A model generated the notes under the pieces. That model saw only the letters and a program-made list of their open reading frames with translations, had not been told where the DNA came from and made no database searches. Below, piece after piece: positions 8,584-24,859 of a DNA stretch of 64,000 nt. Numbering within the stretch: position 1 is the first letter of the stretch; each line of letters begins with the position of its first letter. Origin of the DNA: Cyclobacteriaceae bacterium (GTDB taxonomy: Bacteria; Bacteroidota; Bacteroidia; Cytophagales; Cyclobacteriaceae). Made by a program: the position numbers and the translations under genes. Where the stretch lies: assembly GCA_020832305.1 (NCBI GenBank), contig JAFIEV010000007.1, forward strand, positions 7,501 through 71,500. Reading direction: 5' to 3'.

Positions 8584-8615
8584 TATTTTAGCTGTTGGTA
8601 CAAGATTTCGGAAAA

Positions 8616-11600
8616 ATGACACACCTTAAAGCCTTAATCAAAAAAAGCTTCCTTTTTACCTTGATTGTGTTCCTGGGGTGTAAAAGTGAAAAAGAAGAAT
8701 ATAGGACAGAGATAGTTAATGATTCAAAAAAGATCTTTGAGTTATTGTCTCCTGAGCAAACCGGTATTGACTTTTACAATAAAGTAGTCAACAAGGAAAA
8801 ATTTAATATTTTCTCATATAGAAATTTCTACAACGGTGGTGGTGTTGGAATTATAGATGTAAATAATGATGGTCTAAAGGATATAATCCTCACGGGCAAT
8901 CAAACCGGCAACAAATTATATCTGAACAAGGGAAATTTTGAATTTGAAGATATAACCACTGCTGCCGGCCTCGATAAAAGCAACAATTGGAGTACCGGTG
9001 TGGCCATAGTAGATATTAATCAGGATGGTTTCCACGATATCTATATCTGCAATGCCGGTTATACCGATGGCATTTCTCAGGCAAACGAGTTGTTTATTAA
9101 CAATGGCGATAACACATTCACCGAACAAGCTGCCGAATTTGGGCTCGACGATGCCGGTTATACAACCCATGCTGTTTTTTTTGATTACGATGGAGATGGC
9201 GATCTCGATGTATACATACTTAACAATAGTTTTATCCCGGTTAATACCTTAAATTATTCCAATAAAAGAGAACTCTATGCAGAAGACTGGGACGTGAAAG
9301 AATTTGTAAAGGGGGGGGGAGATAAACTGCTGAGAAACGACAATGGCAAATTTATCGATGTAAGCAGGGAGGCTGGAATATACGGCAGTTTAATTGGCTT
9401 CGGTCTGGGTGTAATGGTAGGGGATGTGAATGGTGACAATCGGCCCGATATATTTGTAGCCAATGATTTTTTTGAACGCGATTACTTATATATTAATCAA
9501 GGTAATGGCACTTTCAGGGAGGAAGGAACAGCTTACATGAGCCAGATGAGCCTGGCATCGATGGGTGCAGATATGGCAGACATTGACAACGATGGTTATC
9601 CTGAAATTTTTACAACGGAAATGCTTCCTCAAAGCGATGAAGAAATAAAGCAAAAGCTTCAATTCGATTCCTATAACACTTTCAAATTAAAACTTACAAG
9701 GGATTTTCATTATCAATACATGCAAAATACCTTACAGCTCAACAATCAAAATGGCACATTTAGTGAAATTTCATGGTATGCAGGGGTAGCGCAAAGCGAC
9801 TGGAGTTGGGGTGCCTTGATTTTTGATGGAAATCTCGATGGCTTCAAAGACCTGTTTGTTTGCAATGGTGTATACCAGGATGTAACAGACACTGATTTTA
9901 TGGATTTTTTTGCCAATGAAGTAGTGCAGCAAATGGTGCTGACCGGCACCCGGGAAGATATGAGTAAAGTACTTGAAAAAATCCCGTCTAACCCCCAGGC
10001 AAACAAATACTATAAAAACAACGGAGATTACACCTTTACGTCCGTAGAAAAAGAAATAGGTTTGGGTGACCTTACTTTTTCCAATGGCGCAGCCTACGCA
10101 GACCTCAACAATGATGGAGCTCCTGATCTGGTCATAAATAACCTTAACCAGCCTTCACACATTTACAAAAACCATATAAAAAAATTAGAGCAACCCCATC
10201 ATATCTCCGTAAATCTTAAGTATGTAAAACCCAATATTGATGGAATCGGCACGCAGGTATTTGTTTACAGCGGCCCGAATGTTTTTCATCAACATCATAT
10301 GCCGGCAAGAGGATTTCAATCCTCTGTAGATTACACTCTGCATTTCGGATTGGGTAAACATGAAGTAATTGACTCAATCGAGGTTCTATGGCCAAATCAT
10401 ATGATATCAAGCATATACAACATATCGGCTGATACTTTGGTAGATCTTCAATATGATAATATGGACAAAAGACCATGGAAGCCCCGGATAAAAGAAAAAA
10501 ATGTTTTTGCTCATCAGGTAAGTCATAACTTTGCCAAACATAAAGAGGACGCACATGTTGATTTCTATCATGAAGGTTTAATCATTAAAAAACTTTCGCG
10601 TGAAGCTGCACCTGTAGCCGTAGCAGATCTGAACGGGAATGGACTGGATGACCTTGTAATGGGTAATGCTTTAAACCAGCCTACCAGGGTATACTTTCAG
10701 AATATTTCAGGAAAATTTGAAGAGTATATACTTACAGGCTCTGAAGAATTTGAAGATACCTGTATTCACTTATTTGATGCTGATGGAGATGGTAAAACCG
10801 ATATAATTATTGGTTCCGGAGGCAACCACCAACCTTTTAAAAGTAATGCATATAAAGTGCGATTGTATTTAAATAAAGGGAAAAACAGATTTGAATATGT
10901 AGAACAACCTTCACTGCATACAGGATTCAATACAGCGGTTATCGTCTCCCTTGATTATGACGGGGATGGGGACCTCGACCTCTTTATCGGAAGCAGAAGT
11001 ATCCCACAGAATTATGGATCAGACCCGCAGAGTTTTCTGCTTGAAAACGATGGAATGGGCAATTTCACCGATATGACCCTGCGAAGGGCAAGAGAAATAT
11101 CCAATATTGGTATGGTCACCGATGCTACACTGGCCGATCTGGAAGGCGATGGTTTGCCAGAGCTTGTAGTGGTGGGCGAGTGGATGGGTATTGAAATATT
11201 TTCGATACAAAACCGCCAGTTGACTCGTTTAACACAGGATTTGCAAAAGCATAAAGGATGGTGGTACAGTGTAAAAGCCACAGACCTTAATAATAACGGT
11301 AAAGATGAACTGATCATAGGCAACAGGGGCACAAACTTTTACTTTAATGGCACCTCTGAGAGTCCTGCTAAATTATGGCTGGCAGATTTTGATGGCAACG
11401 GTGACACGGAAAAAATTATCACCAGGAGAAAACAGGATAAAGATTTTCCGATTCATATTAAGGCAGAACTCTTTTCACAACTTCCATCCTTAAAAAAAGA
11501 GAACCTCAAAAATGTGGATTATTCCAAAAAGTCTATGAAAGAACTTTTTACAGAAGAACAACGTAAGAGCGCCATCGTTAAGGAAGCCAATTATTTTTAC

Positions 11601-11963
11601 TCAGCTGTAGCTTCCTTTGCAAGTGATGTAAATATTGTGGAAGTAGTACCCTTACCGGCTCAAGCACAATTCTCCAGTATTCATGCAATTTATACAATGG
11701 ATTTCAACAATGATGGTATAACCGACCTGTTTATTGCCGGAAATGACAGTCACTTTATCCCACAGTTTTCAAAACTGGATGCCAATCAAGGTCTCCTATT
11801 GAGGGGCAAGGGCGATTTTCAGTTTGAAACTCTGCCTAAAGCTCAGCAATCTTTCAACATCTCCGGCGACATTAAGCAAATTGAAAAAATTCGAATTAAA
11901 GGATCGCCGCATATAATTGTAACTATAAACGACCAAAGTCCTGAGTTGTATAAAATAGATTAA
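8616..11963 (+). CDS. FG-GAP/VCBS repeat lipoprotein with ASPIC/UnbV domain (first paralogue)
   Basis: Large surface lipoprotein of the CRTAC1/UnbV type. ATG 8616 was chosen because it places a lipoprotein signal (LIVFLGC, Cys22) directly at the N-terminus; an upstream ATG at 8595 adds seven residues. Many calcium-binding repeats are visible, for example VDVNNDGLKDI, VDINQDGFHDI, DYDGDGDLDV, DIDNDGYPEI, and a second set after residue 660 (DADGDGKTDI, DYDGDGDLDL). The ASPIC/UnbV domain sits in the middle (about residues 535-610, GIGTQVFVYSG through PARGFQSSVDYTLHFGLG). Length is about 1,115 residues, with FG-GAP propellers on both sides. A run of nine G (9311-9319) codes for Gly-Gly-Gly. The function in SusCD loci is unknown; binding or presentation of a substrate at the surface is an inference. 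Confidence 0.93.
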   Translation: MTHLKALIKKSFLFTLIVFLGCKSEKEEYRTEIVNDSKKIFELLSPEQTGIDFYNKVVNKEKFNIFSYRNFYNGGGVGIIDVNNDGLKDIILTGNQTGNKLYLNKGNFEFEDITTAAGLDKSNNWSTGVAIVDINQDGFHDIYICNAGYTDGISQANELFINNGDNTFTEQAAEFGLDDAGYTTHAVFFDYDGDGDLDVYILNNSFIPVNTLNYSNKRELYAEDWDVKEFVKGGGDKLLRNDNGKFIDVSREAGIYGSLIGFGLGVMVGDVNGDNRPDIFVANDFFERDYLYINQGNGTFREEGTAYMSQMSLASMGADMADIDNDGYPEIFTTEMLPQSDEEIKQKLQFDSYNTFKLKLTRDFHYQYMQNTLQLNNQNGTFSEISWYAGVAQSDWSWGALIFDGNLDGFKDLFVCNGVYQDVTDTDFMDFFANEVVQQMVLTGTREDMSKVLEKIPSNPQANKYYKNNGDYTFTSVEKEIGLGDLTFSNGAAYADLNNDGAPDLVINNLNQPSHIYKNHIKKLEQPHHISVNLKYVKPNIDGIGTQVFVYSGPNVFHQHHMPARGFQSSVDYTLHFGLGKHEVIDSIEVLWPNHMISSIYNISADTLVDLQYDNMDKRPWKPRIKEKNVFAHQVSHNFAKHKEDAHVDFYHEGLIIKKLSREAAPVAVADLNGNGLDDLVMGNALNQPTRVYFQNISGKFEEYILTGSEEFEDTCIHLFDADGDGKTDIIIGSGGNHQPFKSNAYKVRLYLNKGKNRFEYVEQPSLHTGFNTAVIVSLDYDGDGDLDLFIGSRSIPQNYGSDPQSFLLENDGMGNFTDMTLRRAREISNIGMVTDATLADLEGDGLPELVVVGEWMGIEIFSIQNRQLTRLTQDLQKHKGWWYSVKATDLNNNGKDELIIGNRGTNFYFNGTSESPAKLWLADFDGNGDTEKIITRRKQDKDFPIHIKAELFSQLPSLKKENLKNVDYSKKSMKELFTEEQRKSAIVKEANYFYSAVASFASDVNIVEVVPLPAQAQFSSIHAIYTMDFNNDGITDLFIAGNDSHFIPQFSKLDANQGLLLRGKGDFQFETLPKAQQSFNISGDIKQIEKIRIKGSPHIIVTINDQSPELYKID

Positions 11964-11995
11964 TTCCATCTAATACAACCTTAATTTTAAGAGAA

Positions 11996-14900
11996 ATGAA
12001 AATACATTTTACTTTATTTCCGGCCCTCCTGCTTTTATTTAGTGCTGTACTGCCTGCCTGCAAGGAAAAGCAGGTTTCAGTTAAAGATGCGGCATTTGAA
12101 TTACTCACGGCAGAAAAAACCGGACTTCATTTCGAAAATCAACTGCAACAAAGCATTGAGTTCTCGATTTTCGACTATATGTATTTTTTTAACGGTGGAG
12201 GTGTTGCCGCGGCAGATTTTAATCAGGATGGCCTTATAGATTTATTCTTTACCTCAAATCGGGGAAAAAATAAATTGTTCCTCAACAAAGGAAATTTGCA
12301 ATTTGAAGATGTAAGTGAAAAAGCCGGCATAGAAGGAAATGGTGAATGGGCCACAGGAGCTTCCGTTGTCGATATTAATAACGATGGAATGATCGATATT
12401 TATGTGTCTGTCGTCGGTGACCATCATACTCTGGAAGGTAGTAATCTCCTTTTTGTATGTACAGAAATAAAGGATGGCATCCCTGTATTTCAGAATAAAG
12501 CCATAGACTACGACCTTGACCTGGTGGGTTTTGGCACCCAGGCTGTATTTTTTGATATCGACAAAGATGGAGATCTGGATATGTTTATGCTCAACCATTC
12601 AGTTCATCAGAATGGCACTTTTGGACGAAGGTTTGAATTTGATGGCAAGGTTAGTGCGACGGCCGGAGATAAATTATTTATCAATGAAAATGGCCGCTTT
12701 ACAGAGCAAACCCTGAAGGCCGGTATTTACAGTACAGCCATTGGTTATGGCCTTGGCGTGGCAGTGAGTGACATCAACAATAATGGCTTGCCTGATATTT
12801 ATATAGGCAATGATTTTCATGAAAATGACTATCTGTATCTCAACCAGGGTGATGGAACGTTTGTAGAATTGCTAACAGAACAAATGGGTCAGACCAGCAG
12901 GTATACTATGGGGGTTGACATTGCAGACATTAATAACGATGGTTTTCACGATATTTTTTCATTGGATATGATGCCTTATGACAGGTATATTCTGAAAAGC
13001 TCATTGGGTGAAGATTCCTACGACAACCATTCGTTCAAAAAGCGCTTTGGATATAATGATCAGTATTCAAGAAATACTCTGCAACTAAACAATGGAGATT
13101 CAACTTTCAGCGAGATAGCCCGGTATGCAGGTGTATTTGCAACGGATTGGTCATGGGCAGCCCTGTTTTTTGATTTCAATAACAATGGATATAAAGATCT
13201 TTTTGTAAGTAATGGGATTCCCAGGCGTATGAATGATATTGATTACATCAATTTTCTTGAGGAAAATGAGGATAAAAAAATGCGTACAAGTACTGGTCTG
13301 ATGGATGAAGAAGACCTTAATGTGGTAGAAAAGATGCCCAGAATTAAAATCCCTAATATGTTTTTCAGTAATCAGGGTAACCTGACATTCGGAAACATAG
13401 GGAAAAGCATCAGAAACAATTTAAACTCTTATTCCAATGGAGCCATTTATGTAGACCTCGATAACGATGGGGATCTTGACATCGTGGTCAACAACATTGA
13501 AGACAAGCCCTTTATCTACAAAAACTTATCAGTTGAAAACCAGAGAAGCCACGATGCCCTCATCCTCAGCTTAAAAGGATCTCCCGAAAACATCCACGCC
13601 ATTGGTACCCGTATACTGATCAATAAAAAAGATGAGGTTATCAGTCAGGAATTTTATCCCGTACGTGGCTTTCAATCAAGTGCACTGGCACCCTTTCATA
13701 TCGGCGTTGGCCAGGCAAAAGATGTACAGAAAATTATTATCATCTGGCCTGATGGCACCTCATTTACACTTGAAAATCCCGTATTCAATAAGATCGTCGA
13801 ATTAGCATGGAAACCAGGTCTGCCTGATTTTGATTATTCTATATTAAAAAAGAAAAGCCAGGGAGAATTTTATGTTGAAGATCTAAGCCATTTTTTGCAT
13901 AGTAACATGGCACATAGTGAAAACAATTTTCCTGAATTTAACAGGGAACCTCTCATCCCATTTCTTACCTCTTCAGAGGGGCCTGCAATTGCTGTAGCCG
14001 ACATAAATGGCGATGGCCTGGATGATGTTTTTGTAGGAAGAGCTAAAATGTATCCTTCCAGCGTATTTATCCAAACGAAAGAGGGCACATTTGAAGAGCT
14101 CAATGTGCCCCTGCTGGCAAATGACAGTACTTTTGAAGATGTACACGCGGTTTGGCAGGATGTTGATATGGATGGATACCCCGATTTAATCGTTGCCTCC
14201 GGAGGAAACGAATACTGGGGAACCTCTGAATATTTATTACAACGAATCTACTTTAATGATGGTAAAGGAAACCTGACAGAAAAGCTTTACCTGCCAGATG
14301 CCCACCTGACAGCTTCTGTTGTGGCAGTTGATGATTATGATGGCGACGGTCTTCCTGATATATTTATAGGTGGCAGGGCTGTTCCCAGATATTATGGCCA
14401 GGAACCCTTATCTTACCTGTTTAAAAACCTGGGCAATCGCAAATTCGAGAATGTTACATCAACATCTTACCAGGAACTCCATACTGCCGGTATGGTTAAG
14501 GATGCGCATTGGCATGATTTTGATGGGGATGGCAGGCCCGATTTGATTATAGCTTCTGAATGGGAAACCATTAAAATCTTCTATAATAAAGACGGTTATT
14601 TCAGTCCGGTACAAATTACAACACATAAAGGATGGTGGAATACGCTTTTACTAGCTGATATAAATCAGGACGGTAAAACCGATATCATAGCTGGAAACCA
14701 GGGTTTAAATTCCCGTATGACGGCATCAGATAAAGAACCCATTCGCATGTATGTAAATGACTTCGACAAAAATGGACAACCAGAGCAGATTATTACCTAT
14801 TACCTGCAAGGTGAAGAAACACTGCTGGCCAATCATGAGGCATTGCGGAAACAAATTCCGGAATTGAAAAAAAGATTCCTGTTTGCAAAAGATTTTGCTA

Positions 14901-15355
14901 AGGCCAGCCTTACTGATTTGTTTGGTAAGCCAGCCATACAAAATTCCTTGATCTATGAGGCCAATACCATGGCTTCAATGTTATTCCTGCAAACAGAGCC
15001 TGGGAACTTTGAAGCCACGGAACTGACGGGTACGCTGCAATTTTCAACTTTAGATGCTATTGAAAAAGTTGAAGGTTATCCCTGGTATATAAGTGGTGGT
15101 AATACCTATGGAAATCACATGGAAATAGGTAAAAATGATGCAGATTTTGGTAATTTTTTCGTTTATAATGAAAACGGAAAGATCGATGTAATCAGGCCCG
15201 AAGGCTTAAAGTTGGAAGGCCAGGTAAGAAGTATTAAGAATATTAAGATCGGAGAAGACCATTACCTTTTATTGGGAATAAACAATGAGTCTTTAAAATT
15301 GATAAAAATATCTATGGTTAATAAAGGCAATATCTACGCTGAAAAGAACAGGTAA
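11996..15355 (+). CDS. FG-GAP/VCBS repeat lipoprotein with ASPIC/UnbV domain (second paralogue)
   Basis: Paralogue of the preceding gene with the same length (1,119 residues) and domain order. The lipoprotein signal ends LPAC (Cys22). The first propeller has NFNQDGLIDL-type repeats (ADFNQDGLIDL, VDINNDGMIDI, DIDKDGDLDM, DINNNGLPDI, DINNDGFHDI). The ASPIC/UnbV domain is near residues 535-605 (AIGTRILINKKDEV through VRGFQSSALAPFHIGVG), followed by a second propeller (DINGDGLDDV, DYDGDGLPDI, DFDGDGRPDL, DINQDGKTDI). It starts 32 bases after its neighbour, indicating an operon and an old tandem duplication. It is followed by the tandem structured repeat before the haloperoxidase-like gene. Confidence 0.93.
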   Translation: MKIHFTLFPALLLLFSAVLPACKEKQVSVKDAAFELLTAEKTGLHFENQLQQSIEFSIFDYMYFFNGGGVAAADFNQDGLIDLFFTSNRGKNKLFLNKGNLQFEDVSEKAGIEGNGEWATGASVVDINNDGMIDIYVSVVGDHHTLEGSNLLFVCTEIKDGIPVFQNKAIDYDLDLVGFGTQAVFFDIDKDGDLDMFMLNHSVHQNGTFGRRFEFDGKVSATAGDKLFINENGRFTEQTLKAGIYSTAIGYGLGVAVSDINNNGLPDIYIGNDFHENDYLYLNQGDGTFVELLTEQMGQTSRYTMGVDIADINNDGFHDIFSLDMMPYDRYILKSSLGEDSYDNHSFKKRFGYNDQYSRNTLQLNNGDSTFSEIARYAGVFATDWSWAALFFDFNNNGYKDLFVSNGIPRRMNDIDYINFLEENEDKKMRTSTGLMDEEDLNVVEKMPRIKIPNMFFSNQGNLTFGNIGKSIRNNLNSYSNGAIYVDLDNDGDLDIVVNNIEDKPFIYKNLSVENQRSHDALILSLKGSPENIHAIGTRILINKKDEVISQEFYPVRGFQSSALAPFHIGVGQAKDVQKIIIIWPDGTSFTLENPVFNKIVELAWKPGLPDFDYSILKKKSQGEFYVEDLSHFLHSNMAHSENNFPEFNREPLIPFLTSSEGPAIAVADINGDGLDDVFVGRAKMYPSSVFIQTKEGTFEELNVPLLANDSTFEDVHAVWQDVDMDGYPDLIVASGGNEYWGTSEYLLQRIYFNDGKGNLTEKLYLPDAHLTASVVAVDDYDGDGLPDIFIGGRAVPRYYGQEPLSYLFKNLGNRKFENVTSTSYQELHTAGMVKDAHWHDFDGDGRPDLIIASEWETIKIFYNKDGYFSPVQITTHKGWWNTLLLADINQDGKTDIIAGNQGLNSRMTASDKEPIRMYVNDFDKNGQPEQIITYYLQGEETLLANHEALRKQIPELKKRFLFAKDFAKASLTDLFGKPAIQNSLIYEANTMASMLFLQTEPGNFEATELTGTLQFSTLDAIEKVEGYPWYISGGNTYGNHMEIGKNDADFGNFFVYNENGKIDVIRPEGLKLEGQVRSIKNIKIGEDHYLLLGINNESLKLIKISMVNKGNIYAEKNR

Positions 15356-15374
15356 AAATTCTAAAAATCTGCAT

Positions 15375-15463
15375 ATGAAACACCCATGAGAAAAGTCTTC
15401 TCACACAGAGGAATGATTATAAAGGGTGTTCCATCTGACCATTGAAAAACAAATTATAAACAG
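15375..15463 (+). repeat. Tandem structured element, copy 1 (89 bp)
   Basis: First of two head-to-tail copies starting at ATGAAAC. Stem P1 pairs AACACCC (15379-15385) with GGGTGTT (15424-15430). Inside it TGAGAA (15387-15392) pairs with TTCTCA (15398-15403) around loop AAGTC. A second hairpin pairs CATCTG (15432-15437) with CAGATG (15461-15466). A 19-codon mini-ORF runs from 15386 to 15445 (MRKVFSHRGMIIKGVPSDH). Compared with copy 2, P1 shows two compensatory base-pair changes. I do not recognise it as a known riboswitch or leader. Confidence 0.75.
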
Positions 15464-15551
15464 ATGAAACCTCCATGAGAAAATGGTTCTCACACATGGG
15501 AATGATTATAATGGAGGTTCCATCTGACCTTAAAAAAACAATTATAAACAG
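15464..15551 (+). repeat. Tandem structured element, copy 2 (88 bp)
   Basis: Second copy, ending at the ATG of the haloperoxidase-like gene. P1 pairs AACCTCC (15468-15474) with GGAGGTT (15513-15519), the inner stem TGAGAA/TTCTCA encloses loop AATGG, and CATCTG (15521-15526) pairs with CAGATG (15549-15554), so the pairing would cover the next start codon at 15552. A 26-codon mini-ORF runs from 15475 to 15555, reads MRKWFSHMGMIIMEVPSD and further, and its TGA overlaps that ATG as ATGA. Confidence 0.75.
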
Positions 15552-16925
15552 ATGAAAGGCTTTATTACGACCGGTTGTATGAATAAAATATTGTTCGCGG
15601 TAACAGGATTCCTGCTTTTAGGCAATATGTTTGGCTGTAATCCTCCTAAACAAAAAAGAGACCTGCAGCCTGAATTTATGTATAGTGTAATGCAGGAGCT
15701 TACAGATGTGATTGTACACGACATTTTTTCGCCTCCTGTGGCATCGAGGATATATGCCTATCCCAGCATAGCCGCATATGAAATTATGCAGTGGGAAGAC
15801 GATGATTGTCTGTCACTGGCTGGTCAGCTCAATGGTCTTGAAGCATTAGCCAAGCCTGAATTCGAAATTAGTTATCCCCTGGCTGCAACGCATGCTATGT
15901 ATTTGGTTGGGAAAAACCTCGTATTTTCAGAACAGAAACTGGAAGGCTGGTACACACCGAGATTTGAAGATATCAGAAGAAATAGTGGGCTTACCAAAAA
16001 AAAATTTAATAACTCTATACAGTATGCAGAAGATGTAGCTGAGCATATTCTTAACTGGGCCGACGGTGATAATTACAAACAAACCCGCACTATGGCCAAG
16101 CACAGCCTGAGCGAATTTCCCCATCATTGGGAGCCTACTCCCCCAGCATATATGGAGGCCATTGAACCCAATTGGAATAAAATCAGACCTTTTACCCTAA
16201 AAGAATTAGAATCTTTTTCACCTGCACCACCTCCGCCATTCAGCCTGGAAAAAGGCAGTGATTTTATGCAGGAAGTCATGAAGGTCTATGAGGCCGTAAA
16301 CCAGCGTACTAAAGAGCAGGCAGAGATCGCGGCTTTCTGGGACTGTAATCCTTATGTAATGAATATTACCGGACATGTAATGTATGCTACCAAAAAAATA
16401 ACTCCGGGAGGTCACTGGATGGACATTGTAACAACAGCCTGTAAAATCGACTCATCTGGTTTTCTGAAAACAGCCAAAGCCTATGCCCTTACTTCCATTG
16501 CATTAGCTGATGCATTTATTGTATGTTGGGATGAAAAATTCAGAAGCAATCTCATAAGACCTGAAACTTTCATAAACCGATATCTCGATGAAAAATGGGT
16601 GCCGGTGCTTCAGACACCTCCTTTCCCGGAACATACCAGTGGCCATAGTGTGATCTCTTCTGCCGCCGCCGTAATACTTACTGATATTTTCGGTGAGGAT
16701 TTTCCTTTCATCGATAGTACTGAAGTTAAATATGGTTTACCGCCGAGGAAATTTGAAAGCTTTTTAGCTGCCGCTGAAGAAGCTGCTATCAGCCGTCTGT
16801 ATGGAGGCATTCATTATATGCCTGCCATTACAGAAGGTGTAAAACAAGGAAAGTCAGTTGGGAATTATATTATTGGGCATCTCAAACTGGAAAATGATCT
16901 TATGTCTGTTGCTGATAGCGAATAA
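15552..16925 (+). CDS. Vanadium-dependent haloperoxidase-like (PAP2 superfamily) lipoprotein, first paralogue
   Basis: Member of the vanadium haloperoxidase / acid phosphatase superfamily, 457 residues. The anion-binding signature is visible in order: K-x6-R-P as KFRSNLIRP (Lys about 329, Arg 336), TSGH (His about 365) and SRLYGGIH (Arg 415, His 421). The Asp that usually follows the last His in PAP2 enzymes is absent (HYMPA). A lipoprotein signal ends in MFGC. Two starts are possible: ATG 15552, which overlaps the stop of a mini-ORF as ATGA, and ATG 15579, which gives a tighter signal peptide; I prefer 15552. Vanadate-dependent oxidation of halides is the family activity; phosphatase activity is the alternative. 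Confidence 0.88.
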   Translation: MKGFITTGCMNKILFAVTGFLLLGNMFGCNPPKQKRDLQPEFMYSVMQELTDVIVHDIFSPPVASRIYAYPSIAAYEIMQWEDDDCLSLAGQLNGLEALAKPEFEISYPLAATHAMYLVGKNLVFSEQKLEGWYTPRFEDIRRNSGLTKKKFNNSIQYAEDVAEHILNWADGDNYKQTRTMAKHSLSEFPHHWEPTPPAYMEAIEPNWNKIRPFTLKELESFSPAPPPPFSLEKGSDFMQEVMKVYEAVNQRTKEQAEIAAFWDCNPYVMNITGHVMYATKKITPGGHWMDIVTTACKIDSSGFLKTAKAYALTSIALADAFIVCWDEKFRSNLIRPETFINRYLDEKWVPVLQTPPFPEHTSGHSVISSAAAVILTDIFGEDFPFIDSTEVKYGLPPRKFESFLAAAEEAAISRLYGGIHYMPAITEGVKQGKSVGNYIIGHLKLENDLMSVADSE

Positions 16926-16999
16926 ATTATAATCAAATAGTATTTGACTTATGCTGTTAGTGTCGAAAGCATATAGAATTACAAAAATTCAAAATTTTG

Positions 17000-17007
17000 T
17001 ATATTTG
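17000..17007 (+). promoter_or_regulatory. -7 box upstream of second haloperoxidase-like gene
   Basis: TATATTTG matches the Bacteroidota -7 consensus TAnnTTTG, 27 bases before the ATG. No clear -33 TTTG lies at the right distance, so this may be a weak secondary promoter inside the operon. A 6-bp hairpin (TATGCT / AGCATA) lies just upstream, around 16949-16973. Confidence 0.4.
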
Positions 17008-17034
17008 TAAATGTCGGGTTAAAGTATTTTAAGT

Positions 17035-18396
17035 ATGGGATATAACAAATATTTTAATTTTTGTAAGATCTGGCTGTTTATCATGGTTTTACATATTAGT
17101 TCATGCCAGCAACACAATGAAAATTATAGAGAGTTGGCATCAGAACCAGCCATTTTTCACAAGGCACTCAAGGGGCTTACTGAAATAATAGTGCATGATA
17201 TCTTCTCTCCGCCGGTAGCAAGTCGTATTTATTATTATACCAGTTTAGCCGCCTATGAAGCACTGGTACATGATTATCCCGGATACATCAGTTTATCTGG
17301 ACAGCTCAATGGCCTGACTCCGGTTCCTGAACCAATTAAAGGTGAAACCTATTGCTTATCATTATCAGCAACCCACGCTTTTCTGGTGGTTGGCAGGAAA
17401 ATGATATTCTCAGAAAACAAAATGGACTTGCTGGATCAGGAAATTTACGGCTATTTTAAAAATGCAGGAATCCCTGCCAATGTCTATAAAAGATCGATAG
17501 AATATGGCAGTTTAGTAGCAAAGCATATATTGGAATGGGCAGATACCGACAATTACAAACAAACCAGGACATTTCCAAAATATACCGTTTTATCCGATGC
17601 ATATGCATGGAAACCTACACCGCCTGATTACATGGAGGGAATAGAACCTCACTGGGATAAAATAAGAACAGCTGTCCTGGATTCAGCAAATCAATTTATT
17701 CCTCCACCACCCACTCCCTTTGATATGCAGCCCGGAAGCACATTTCTTAAAGAGGTAATGGAAGTGTATGAGGCTGTAAACACTCTTTGTGACGAAAAAT
17801 CAGAAATTGCGCAGTTTTGGGATTGTAACCCTTATGTATCGCACCATAAAGGTCACGCTATGTTTGCAACTAAAAAAATTACTCCCGGCGGGCATTGGAT
17901 GGGAATTACCGGTATCGCGGCCAGAAAAGCAGGCCTTGACGTCATGGGTACCATAGAAGCATATTCGATGGTTTCGATTGCCTTGTTTGATGGTTTTATC
18001 AGCTGCTGGGATGAAAAATGGAGAAGCATTCTCATCCGGCCAGAAACGGTCATTAATCAATATATTGACGAAAACTGGGTACCATTGTTGCAAACACCTC
18101 CTTTCCCCGAATACACCAGCGGTCACAGTGTAATTTCAGCAGCTGCCTCTACAACCCTGACCCATCTGCTGGGTGATCATTTTCAGTTTAATGACTCGAC
18201 TGAAGTGGAATACGGTTTACCTATACGTTCTTTTAACAGCTTTAATGAAGCTTCAAAGGAAGCTGCTATAAGTCGCTTATATGGTGGCATACATTATATG
18301 CCAGCCATAACCCATGGTGTTGAACAAGGCCATAAAGTGGGGAAGCTTGTAACTCACCGAATTAACACACGCAAAACCGGCGTGGCCTTGCAGTGA
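17035..18396 (+). CDS. Vanadium-dependent haloperoxidase-like (PAP2 superfamily) lipoprotein, second paralogue
   Basis: Paralogue of the preceding enzyme, 453 residues, with a lipoprotein signal ending ISSC (Cys24). The same signature is present: KWRSILIRP, YTSGHSVIS and SRLYGGIHYMPA, again without the final Asp. Other shared blocks are IVHDIFSPPVASRIYYY at the N-terminus and ATKKITPGGHWMGI in the middle. Both paralogues keep every residue expected to hold vanadate, so both are probably active. It is the last gene of the plus-strand block and faces the ABC importer convergently over a 77-base gap without an obvious terminator. Confidence 0.88.
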   Translation: MGYNKYFNFCKIWLFIMVLHISSCQQHNENYRELASEPAIFHKALKGLTEIIVHDIFSPPVASRIYYYTSLAAYEALVHDYPGYISLSGQLNGLTPVPEPIKGETYCLSLSATHAFLVVGRKMIFSENKMDLLDQEIYGYFKNAGIPANVYKRSIEYGSLVAKHILEWADTDNYKQTRTFPKYTVLSDAYAWKPTPPDYMEGIEPHWDKIRTAVLDSANQFIPPPPTPFDMQPGSTFLKEVMEVYEAVNTLCDEKSEIAQFWDCNPYVSHHKGHAMFATKKITPGGHWMGITGIAARKAGLDVMGTIEAYSMVSIALFDGFISCWDEKWRSILIRPETVINQYIDENWVPLLQTPPFPEYTSGHSVISAAASTTLTHLLGDHFQFNDSTEVEYGLPIRSFNSFNEASKEAAISRLYGGIHYMPAITHGVEQGHKVGKLVTHRINTRKTGVALQ

Positions 18397-22402: not shown

Positions 22403-24859
22403 ATGATTTCCTTTGAAAAGATTGCATCGATATGTAGCGGACACATTATATCGGGTTCGATGGATGGTTACGTACGCGATTTTTACACCGACAGCCGCAG
22501 TCCGATTATGGGCAATACCAGTGCTTTTATTGCCATTGAAGGCAGAAACCACGATGGGCATATTTTTATACCAGAACTTTACCAACTGGGAACGCGTTGT
22601 TTTATTGTTGAAAAACAGCAGGACTATTACGCTGGTGATTGTCCTCTTGCCACATTTATTAAAGTATCAAAGGGTCTGGTTGCCTTGCAACAAATTGCTG
22701 CATGGCATAGAATGCAATTCAAAATTCCTGTGGTTGCAATAACGGGTAGCAATGGAAAAACCATTATAAAGGAATGGTTGAGTCAATTACTGTCATGGCA
22801 ATTTCATATAGTAAAAAGTCCGAAGAGCTATAATTCACAGTTGGGTGTGCCATTATCTGTGTTGCAAATGGATCTCCTGCACGAATTGGCCATTTTTGAA
22901 GCAGGTATTTCCAAACCTGGTGAAATGGAGATTTTGCAAAAAATACTTCATCCGGTTGTTGGTATTTTTACCAATCTTGGTTCTGCTCATGATGAAGCTT
23001 TTAGAAATCGAAATGAAAAGCTCAGTGAGAAATTAAAGCTTTTTCAAGACGTAGAAGTTTTAATTTACTGTAAAGACCAAACACTGGTTCACGAAAAAAT
23101 CTGTAGCAAAAATTTTCCTGTTTTTACATGGAGCATGCATGACCAGGCTGACTTATGTGTGCGGATAATAAGGCAGGATAGTCTTGGCACATATTGTCAA
23201 TGCAGGCATAAAGGTAATGATTGTGAAATTTACCTTCCTTTTTCTGATACTGCATCTTTAGAAAACGCATTTCACTGTATGGCCTTGATTGTGTGGATGG
23301 GTCTGCCTCTGCAGCGCTTTAAGGAGTCTTTTCAAAATCTCAAAAATGTGCCTATGCGGCTTGAACTCGTAGAAGGCAACAACAATTGTCATATAATAAA
23401 CGATGCTTATAATAATGATCTTGCTGGCATTATTGCTGGTATTGATTTTATGATTCAGCAACAAAACAAACCCAAAAAGACCGTCATTTTATCTGATGTA
23501 TTGCAATCAGGAAAAGGAGGAGATGCATTATATGCTGAAATCGCCAGGTTATTGAAAACCAAAAACATTGACCTTATCATAGGCATCGGGCCTGAAATTT
23601 GCCAAAATAAAGAAGTTTTTGAGGGTAATTGTATGTTTTTTGAGAGTACCGATAACTTCCTGACCGAATTAGATGAAACGACCTTCACCAACCAAACAAT
23701 TTTGGTAAAAGGTGCAAGACCCTTTAGATTTGAACGTATCGTACAAAAACTACAGAAAAAACTTCATGGCACGGTCCTGGAAATAAACCTCGAAGCGCTT
23801 CTGCATAATTTTAATTTCTATAGAAGCAAAATACAGGGTGATACTAAAATTATGGTAATGGTGAAAGCCCTTGCTTATGGTAGTGGAAGCCATCAGGTTT
23901 CCTCACTATTGCAATACCATGGAGCTGATTACCTCGCAGTGGCCTATGCTGATGAAGGAATTGAGTTAAGACACCACGGCATCAGTTTGCCTATTATGGT
24001 TATGAATGCCCAAACCGATCAGTTTGAAAAAATCTCTTTGTTTCGACTGGAGCCTGAAATTTATTCTTTGGCTCTTTTAAAAGCATTGAATGACTTTTCA
24101 TTACAGCACCAGACAGATTTTATAATTCACTTGAAACTGGAAACCGGCATGCATAGACTTGGGTTCAAGAAGGAAGAACTGGAAGAACTCTGCGGCATAA
24201 TTAAGAAAAATCCACGATTAAAAGTGGTAAGTGTCTTTTCTCATCTGGCAGGAGCCGACGAAGTATCACACGACGAATTTACCCTGAAACAGGTTAGTGC
24301 TTTTGAGGTATTGAGCAATACTCTTTCTGATAAACTGGGCATTAAGCCCTACCGCCATATTCTAAATTCTGCCGGCATATTGCGATTTCCGGAATACCAA
24401 TACGACATGGTAAGACTGGGCATAGGTTTGTATGGGTTTGATGCCAGTTTGCTCTATCAGAACAAATTGCAGCAGGTAAGTACGCTTAAAACGACGATTT
24501 CACAAATTCATAAAATAGGACCAGAAGATAGAGTAGGTTACAGCCGGATGGGCAGGTTGCCCAATGGTGGTAAGGTAGCCACTATTGGGATCGGATATGC
24601 CGATGGATATCCCAGAATTTTGGGAAATGGAAAAGCCTATGTAAAGATAAATGGTCAGAATGCCAGGGTGATAGGGAACATTTGCATGGATATGACCATG
24701 GTAGATGTGAGTCATATCGAATGTAATGAAGGAGATACAGCAATTGTTTTTGGAAGCGATCCTGACATATATCAACTGGCGGAACTGGCCCACAGCATAC
24801 CTTATGAGGTTCTTACAAATATCAAAGACAGGGTGAAAAGAGTATACTTTTCCAGCTGA
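22403..24859 (+). CDS. Bifunctional MurF ligase / alanine racemase
   Basis: Fusion of UDP-MurNAc-tripeptide:D-Ala-D-Ala ligase (MurF, residues about 1-445) and PLP-dependent alanine racemase (about 455-818), two steps of peptidoglycan precursor synthesis. MurF shows the ATP loop VVAITGSNGKTIIKEW (about 115-125), AIFEAGISKPGEM and the GARPFRFER end. The racemase shows the PLP lysine in MVMVKALAYGSG (about 488), and the catalytic Tyr in VGYSRMGRL (about 711), followed by GNICMDMTMVDVS. The fusion is characteristic of Bacteroidota. It faces the LEA-type gene convergently with only two bases between stops. Confidence 0.95.
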   Translation: MISFEKIASICSGHIISGSMDGYVRDFYTDSRSPIMGNTSAFIAIEGRNHDGHIFIPELYQLGTRCFIVEKQQDYYAGDCPLATFIKVSKGLVALQQIAAWHRMQFKIPVVAITGSNGKTIIKEWLSQLLSWQFHIVKSPKSYNSQLGVPLSVLQMDLLHELAIFEAGISKPGEMEILQKILHPVVGIFTNLGSAHDEAFRNRNEKLSEKLKLFQDVEVLIYCKDQTLVHEKICSKNFPVFTWSMHDQADLCVRIIRQDSLGTYCQCRHKGNDCEIYLPFSDTASLENAFHCMALIVWMGLPLQRFKESFQNLKNVPMRLELVEGNNNCHIINDAYNNDLAGIIAGIDFMIQQQNKPKKTVILSDVLQSGKGGDALYAEIARLLKTKNIDLIIGIGPEICQNKEVFEGNCMFFESTDNFLTELDETTFTNQTILVKGARPFRFERIVQKLQKKLHGTVLEINLEALLHNFNFYRSKIQGDTKIMVMVKALAYGSGSHQVSSLLQYHGADYLAVAYADEGIELRHHGISLPIMVMNAQTDQFEKISLFRLEPEIYSLALLKALNDFSLQHQTDFIIHLKLETGMHRLGFKKEELEELCGIIKKNPRLKVVSVFSHLAGADEVSHDEFTLKQVSAFEVLSNTLSDKLGIKPYRHILNSAGILRFPEYQYDMVRLGIGLYGFDASLLYQNKLQQVSTLKTTISQIHKIGPEDRVGYSRMGRLPNGGKVATIGIGYADGYPRILGNGKAYVKINGQNARVIGNICMDMTMVDVSHIECNEGDTAIVFGSDPDIYQLAELAHSIPYEVLTNIKDRVKRVYFSS

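Follow-up and report, generated by a model that had tools for sequence, protein, structure and literature searches.

A dispersed folded repeat associated with ATGAA start codons in Cyclobacteriaceae and beyond, with the appearance of a small mobile element

Cooperative tandem riboswitches of the glycine type are composed of structured units repeated in tandem ahead of an ORF. Among dispersed repeats, the nearest described systems are the REP sequences associated with RAYT (TnpAREP) proteins. According to the available text of PMC6006769, canonical REPs display the motif GT[AG]G at the foot of their hairpin, this motif is absent in subclass 2.6 and class 3, the guide sequences lie 5' of the hairpin foot, and RAYT genes with such repeats inserted in them are described for subclass 2.4. 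In the literature consulted, nothing was recognised as the element presented here; the nearest, by description, are the repeats with "atypical secondary structures" that accompany genes of subclass 2.6 (PMC6006769, as far as its available text goes).

The window analysed here, i.e. the whole stretch of 64,000 nucleotides, comes from a Cyclobacteriaceae bacterium and contains two tandem copies of a folded unit. We propose, with a probability of roughly 0.7, that these copies belong to a non-autonomous, dispersed, folded element that inserts immediately 3' of a host ATGAA, or in some cases of GAA alone, and whose right end brings an ATGAA of its own. The copy number, the exact junctions with their empty counterparts, the covarying folded strand and the excess of start-like ATG are observed, and the units look like mobile DNA rather than a riboswitch.

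The tandem copies of the window and the fold of the unit

The two copies are arranged head to tail with a spacing of 88-89 nt and are 83% identical across 81 nt. Tandem structured copies ahead of a haloperoxidase-like gene had been pointed out by the sequence-only reading and are confirmed as the units 15380-15468 and 15469-15556. The array extends slightly beyond the end at 15551 given there: unit 2 stops at 15556, within the ATGAA where an ORF of 457 amino acids begins (15552). The features are the following, all on the + strand:

15375-15379, +, host target ATGAA, left flank of the array
15380-15468, +, unit 1, 89 nt, starting next to the host ATGAA and including an ATGAA of its own at the right end (covariance model match of 91.3 bits, G000:C29:22875-22968)
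15379-15385, +, unit 1, 5' arm of P1, AACACCC, pairing with 15424-15430
15387-15403, +, unit 1, P2 hairpin, TGAGAA..TTCTCA (P2 covaries across units)
15401-15422, +, unit 1, conserved core TCACACAnnGGAATGATTATAA (unit alignment)
15424-15430, +, unit 1, 3' arm of P1, GGGTGTT, pairing with 15379-15385
15432-15437, +, unit 1, guide-like arm CATCTG, which is the 5' arm of P3 (P3 covariation)
15461-15466, +, unit 1, 3' arm of P3, CAGATG, right end (P3 covariation)
15469-15556, +, unit 2, 88 nt, ending in the ATGAA that overlaps the ORF start (covariance model match of 83.8 bits, G000:C29:22964-23056)
15468-15474, +, unit 2, 5' arm of P1, AACCTCC, pairing with 15513-15519
15476-15492, +, unit 2, P2 hairpin (sequence)
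15490-15511, +, unit 2, conserved core (unit alignment)
15513-15519, +, unit 2, 3' arm of P1, GGAGGTT, pairing with 15468-15474
15521-15526, +, unit 2, guide-like arm CATCTG (sequence and covariation)
15549-15554, +, unit 2, 3' arm of P3, CAGATG, including the ATG at 15552 (sequence)
15552-15556, +, rebuilt ATGAA opening the downstream ORF (sequence)
15552-16925, +, downstream ORF, PAP2-superfamily protein of 457 amino acids (ORF list and family match)

As had been read from the letters alone, P1 is compensated between the copies, AACACCC/GGGTGTT in copy 1 and AACCTCC/GGAGGTT in copy 2 differing at two pairs with the pairing retained, and P2 (TGAGAA/TTCTCA) and P3 (CATCTG/CAGATG) are found in both. 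The arm CATCTG of unit 1 would have a double role, its CAT being able to pair with the left ATG too. Concerning the PAP2 ORF, the 19 homologues retrieved align only from residue 9 to 34 onward, and translation may natively start at Met-10 (15579, 27 nt downstream of 15552), which is followed by a lipoprotein-like signal. The surrounding region (8595-18396) encodes two FG-GAP/UnbV-ASPIC proteins of about 1120 amino acids followed by two tandem PAP2-superfamily (haloperoxidase-like) genes that are 55% identical. Further along (22403-24859), an ORF of 818 amino acids resembles a MurF-alanine racemase fusion, judging from its translation.

From the loci L001-L244, 282 units were parsed, corresponding to 147 distinct arrays after removal of duplicates (one array, L136/L244, had been counted twice by the parser). 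They comprise 83 single, 46 double, 12 triple and 6 quadruple arrays; these sizes are lower bounds, since 13 right flanks start with an apparent further unit (L183 being wrongly so called) and six left flanks resemble another unit. The units mostly measure 88-100 nt and have the general form: host ATGAA, then A(Y)..P1..P2..CACACAnnGGRATGATTAT..P1'..RTTCCATNNGRCC..A/T-rich linker..NNNATGAA, then host. The core CACACA..GGGATGATTATAA is conserved, and the stem types vary widely between units. The left 5-mer is ATGAA in 124 of the 147 arrays (the parser demanded GAA); in 21 arrays the left start is not of a listed common type, and some of these starts are clearly misplaced (L061, L091, L114, L144 and L149, for example). 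The right 5-mer is ATGAA in 142 arrays, and in 140 right flanks the adjoining base is either A (95%) or T (5%). The existence of tandem arrays is accounted for by this right end, which recreates the insertion target.

Each of the window units folds better than its dinucleotide shuffles, with z values of -2.15 (copy 1) and -4.19 (copy 2) on the given strand, and of -1.65 and -2.42 on the complement; P2 as drawn is absent from the minimum-energy folds of the given strand for these copies. Covariation was measured on 22 of 34 representatives, drawn from 134 units of standard length among 190 extracted; the 12 units omitted from the alignment include the mosaic L127. This alignment brings together units of many genomes. 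Its covariation score over the three stems is 0.291, compared with 0.079 in shuffles (none of 500 shuffles reaches the score) and at most 0.078 in slid controls, and 86.6% of cells are paired against 73.9% in shuffles. As the units were aligned by sequence and the structure was picked by eye, these values lean somewhat towards the chosen structure. P3 was also examined on 126 right ends, located by a pattern that leaves both arms free and separate from the 22-unit alignment. The hand-counted arms are CTG/CAG (105), GTG/CAC (13), CTG/CAC (5) and GTG/CAG (3), i.e. eight mixed cases (Fisher p 2.5e-11), and by this covariation the guide-like arm pairs with the right end. The diverged units L027 and L224, with CATCCG/CGGATG, extend the covariation of P3.

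That the stems covary indicates that a folded single strand matters. Read on the top strand, two P1 positions are occupied by G.A (13 of the 22 units) and by A.G (14 units), which favours this strand as the folding one. At the foot, where ATGAA faces TTCCAT, the A.C mismatch would become a wobble on the other strand and argues the opposite way. In the mosaic units L004, L005, L014 and L019, the P1 arms belong to different stem types and are unpaired, from which it follows that units recombine. Smaller palindromes are nested within some units (L002, L011, L013, L014, L016, L020, L064 and L082), where, for example, CCCCGAANGCTTTCGGGG replaces ATTATA and CCCGAAGAAAAATCGGGA lies shortly 5' of the P3 arm; judging from the sequences, it is as if a second tiny repeat family inserted into the first.

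Dispersal, insertion junctions and placement

In the genome of the window (G000), blastn detects 43 places at E<=0.001 and 50 at E<=10, several of them being pieces of one array, and the covariance model, applied to 150 of 4786 candidates, gives at least 38 matches at E<=0.01. With the own genome always included, matches were found in 18 of 59 genomes of relatives, in 15 of 194 genomes of the order under strict filters (families f1, f3, f5, f16, f19 and f22) and, for the right-end pattern, in five of 395 genomes of a sample of the phylum, one of which (G364) belongs to another class. The exact core pattern is present in at least 111 stretches of genome contigs. Among 80 stretches listed, most belong to Algoriphagus, Lunatibacter and Cyclobacterium (all Cyclobacteriaceae), others to Belliella, Anditalea and Pleomorphovibrio, and a few to MAGs labelled Flavobacteriaceae, Flavobacteriales, Bacteroidales or Cytophagales. 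The family is spread across Cyclobacteriaceae and beyond. No unit match was obtained in viral contigs, plasmids or phages (one query each). Runs of N occur within the arrays L140, L156, L265 and L285, and three contigs of one genome (G034: C13, C20 and C26) start inside or close to units. Given these N runs and contig ends, the repeats seem to break assemblies and the copy numbers are probably underestimated.

The extent of the unit is given by pairs of filled and empty loci, which indicate that it begins next to the host GAA and ends with its own ATGAA. A RAYT-type gene is filled in L183 and empty at ..GAA|ATGCC in L185, L182, L179 and L178, with nothing duplicated. At a SusC/SusD-like gene boundary, the insertion in L221 separates precisely bases 5 and 6 of the start ATGAA|AAG, and this start is intact and empty in the homologous L156 (about 70% identical DNA). 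A third case is the coaD-like gene of Algoriphagus resistens (L097), whose start codon carries a unit; among its homologues (39 of 39 genomes matched; 30 loci fetched), 29 gene starts were displayed over 70 nt, and none of these contains a visible unit. Insertion takes place 3' of the host (AT)GAA without target duplication, and the element terminates in its own ATGAA. A classical MITE, defined by terminal inverted repeats and a target duplication, was considered and rejected, as no target duplication is found at L183 or L221.

The units are strongly enriched at start codons. A start-like ATG, defined by an ORF of at least 60 codons to the right and fewer than 40 codons in frame to the left, is found in 69 of the 121 arrays that could be tested; for ATGAA sites elsewhere in the same loci, the figure is 150 of 1200 (odds ratio 9.3, p 3.7e-27). 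The excess stands when the arrays whose right flank opens with another unit are left out (68 of 112 against 135 of 1077). At a start codon the element gives back ATGAA, so that the predicted protein is unaltered. The sequence-only reading had set its proposal against that of dispersed repeats unlinked to genes; the dispersal is largely what was found, but with a strong tie to start codons.

Concerning the genes downstream, 84 ORFs of at least 60 amino acids include only eight homologous pairs, six of them among SusD-like proteins. The nine proteins scanned for families correspond to a dUTPase, a porphobilinogen deaminase, two cytidylyltransferases, Ham1, RsgA, an aromatic amino acid lyase, an exonuclease and SusD, and no common functional theme emerges from these two sets. 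Proteins starting with MK are often hydrophobic at the N-terminus, and a hydrophobic N-terminus is present in 40 of the 84 ORFs. Units also sit between genes and occasionally within genes.

The tandem arrangement in the window had been likened to that of cooperative riboswitches. In such a cis-regulatory RNA, P3 would hide the start codon, pairing of CAU with the upstream AUG would free it, and tandem copies would provide cooperativity. The covarying stems and conserved core, a guide arm able to pair with either AUG and the strong link to start codons all suit this reading, as does the predicted accessibility of the right-end AUG, unpaired at a mean of 0.28 with the element against 0.43 without it (135 arrays from the list before duplicate removal, folded in windows of unequal length). 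On the other side, the unit is dispersed, with precise insertion junctions and empty counterparts, the genes that follow are unrelated in function, copies lie between and inside genes as well, and the displayed coaD-like homologues lack the unit. No Rfam family matches the 64 kb window at its gathering score; when the limit is relaxed to E 10, four hits appear, the best having E 0.06, and all are at chance level and far below that score. We consider a riboswitch very improbable; covariation and a place ahead of ORFs are insufficient for calling one. An effect of the element on gene expression through the accessibility of the start codon is plausible according to the predicted folds.

Inside genes, the units are depleted. 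An open frame of at least 60 codons on both sides spans six of 137 arrays (four sense, two antisense) against 193 of 339 control sites (138 arrays and 341 controls prior to duplicate removal). Among the spanned cases, L002 and L112 (sense) can be read as start-codon insertions that happen to be preceded by an open frame, and L080 (antisense) as a chance overlap. By eye, the insertions within genes are L008, L014, L016, L064, L183 and L185 (both RAYT) and L209 in sense, and L141 in antisense. In L209, the element (111 nt) lies within a GH95-like gene, in frame and free of stops; the catalytic domain of this gene is matched as one stretch, and the sequence of the element is compatible with translation. 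A sense bias of the in-gene insertions was dropped as an argument, the control ATGAA sites being equally skewed (156 sense and 43 antisense, n=339).

A tiny intron, or a mobile element that ribosomes bypass between an ATGAA for take-off and a matching one for landing, would agree with the identical ATGAA on both sides of a folded element and with in-gene insertions that are nearly all read in sense. The depletion of spanning open frames runs counter to it, since it suggests that insertion inside a gene is normally harmful and that the element is not routinely spliced out or bypassed. The sense excess of the controls, the antisense case L141 and the open frame of L209 also speak against this reading, to which we give hardly any weight. 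Returning to the mobile element, the excess at start codons is at least partly survivorship: insertions inside genes would mostly be lost, and start codons would serve as safe sites.

Candidate mobilisers and proposed mechanism

A search of 18 genomes for Y1_Tnp gave 86 matches (28 from a set of five genomes and 58 from a set of 13), and 58 of these loci were inspected (28 from the first set and 30 from the second). None of the 58 has units on both sides of the Y1 gene according to the covariance model. Units are present in four of them: in two cases the unit lies within a broken RAYT copy, and in the other two it lies outside the Y1 gene, at a distance of about 120 nt in one locus and of about 840 nt in the other. 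By eye, the flanks of 19 Y1 genes mostly contain other palindromes, and the unit in none. Several RAYT genes (L174, L178-L180, L182, L186, L187 and others) are apparently flanked by their own distinct palindromes, with several families per genome. In G034, the degenerate RAYT-type Y1 genes L183 and L185 contain a unit within the reading frame at the same place, where L178 is uninterrupted; the unit of L185 is open until a stop at its last codon, and that of L183 has an earlier stop.

The unit could be a REP-type repeat moved by a RAYT/Y1 protein resembling subclass 2.6. Several observations agree with this reading: RAYT-type genes exist in these genomes, two degenerate copies of which contain the unit; insertion 3' of a short target without duplication suits Y1 chemistry; and the available text of PMC6006769 reports that genes of subclass 2.6 are surrounded by dispersed structured repeats devoid of GT[AG]G. 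Against it stand the rarity of units at the inspected Y1 loci and their absence from the 19 flanks, as well as two element-bearing genomes, G113 (nine unit matches) and G077 (four), which have no Y1 match at E<=0.001 and may have had one in the past. For the replication strand, roughly approximated by the local GC skew, no bias is seen: 31 arrays follow the skew and 28 oppose it (59 of 71 arrays at a skew of at least 0.01, the other 12 being omitted for weak skew). This test covered 60 stretches of three genomes, of which 58 measure 20 kb and the other two 19.8 kb and 11.3 kb; 457 of their genes lie with and 292 against the skew. As far as this rough proxy goes, the lack of a lagging-strand preference would argue mildly against replication-coupled single-strand transposition. 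On the whole, we regard mobilisation by a RAYT as unlikely.

No autonomous copy was detected: the 30 right-end loci fetched without the core requirement, of 126 matches, all adjoin an ordinary unit. Orphan right ends were flagged in 56 of 252 candidates, and the genuine ones, by eye, had the core upstream or corresponded to short or truncated units. A tyrosine or serine recombinase, of the host or of an element, could also move circular units with ATGAA as the shared core, in the manner of tiny integron cassettes. The direct ATGAA on both sides, the tandem arrays and the folded strand are in line with such an enzyme. Among 16 recurrent upstream gene clusters, none resembles a transposase or an integrase on inspection, and we hold this explanation to be quite unlikely.

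For the non-autonomous element, the following mechanism can be proposed. An enzyme supplied in trans would recognise the folded top strand, i.e. P1 and P2 with the CACACA..GGGATGATTATAA core. The shared arm TTCCAT(NNG) would pair by turns with the left ATGAA and with the right-end NNNATGAA, uniting both cleavage points, a guide logic akin to single-strand (HUH/Y1) transposition. Beyond ATG, pairing of the guide with the left flank is no better than in shuffled pairs (five full matches of 123, with 7.2 expected); with no extended complementarity between guide and target, the target is just ATGAA. When this target is a start codon, the element would restore the first five bases behind an A/T-rich leader, the protein would remain the same and the insertion would be tolerated. 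The regenerated right end would then permit further insertion and produce tandem arrays.

It is conceivable, although we would put it forward only tentatively, that the guide pairs alternately with the host start codon and the right-end copy and that insertion at start codons is carried out by an enzyme other than Y1, or by the nucleic acid of the element itself, with the protein left intact and a switchable hairpin placed over the start codon; this would constitute a new kind of miniature mobile element. There is a real chance that the mobiliser makes the element something newer than a dispersed folded mobile repeat. If the mobiliser is not a Y1 protein, a new transposition or recombination partner is to be found. 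By targeting and rebuilding ATGAA, such a repeat makes start codons, including those of housekeeping-type genes, safe insertion sites, and many unrelated genes thereby receive an identical folded leader.

Comparison with known systems

Like the glycine-type tandem riboswitches, the units are structured, arranged in tandem and placed 5' of an ORF. Unlike them, they are dispersed, have insertion junctions, share no common gene function and match no Rfam family.

The resemblance with REP/RAYT lies in the short folded repeats dispersed in Bacteroidota and in the repeat insertions within RAYT genes, which are seen here too. The units differ by the absence of GT[AG]G, their conserved foot being ATGAAAY/RTTCCAT, by the target ATGAA, by an own ATGAA end and by the excess at start codons. 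Moreover, they do not flank the 58 Y1 loci inspected, and two unit-bearing genomes have no Y1 match.

With the non-autonomous derivatives of IS200/IS605, the units share insertion 3' of a short target without duplication, a right end with an equivalent short sequence and an internal guide-like pairing. In contrast, the guide-like arm is located here 3' of the hairpin (3' of P1), whereas the guides of that system lie 5' in the available text of PMC6006769; no parent element was found in the genomes analysed here and no lagging-strand bias was seen.

Finally, the Rickettsia palindromic elements, as described in the available text of PMC10969869, are also small palindromic repeats that can be accommodated in frame within a gene, as is the case here for L209. 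The units differ from them in that in-gene insertions are rare here and start codons dominate.
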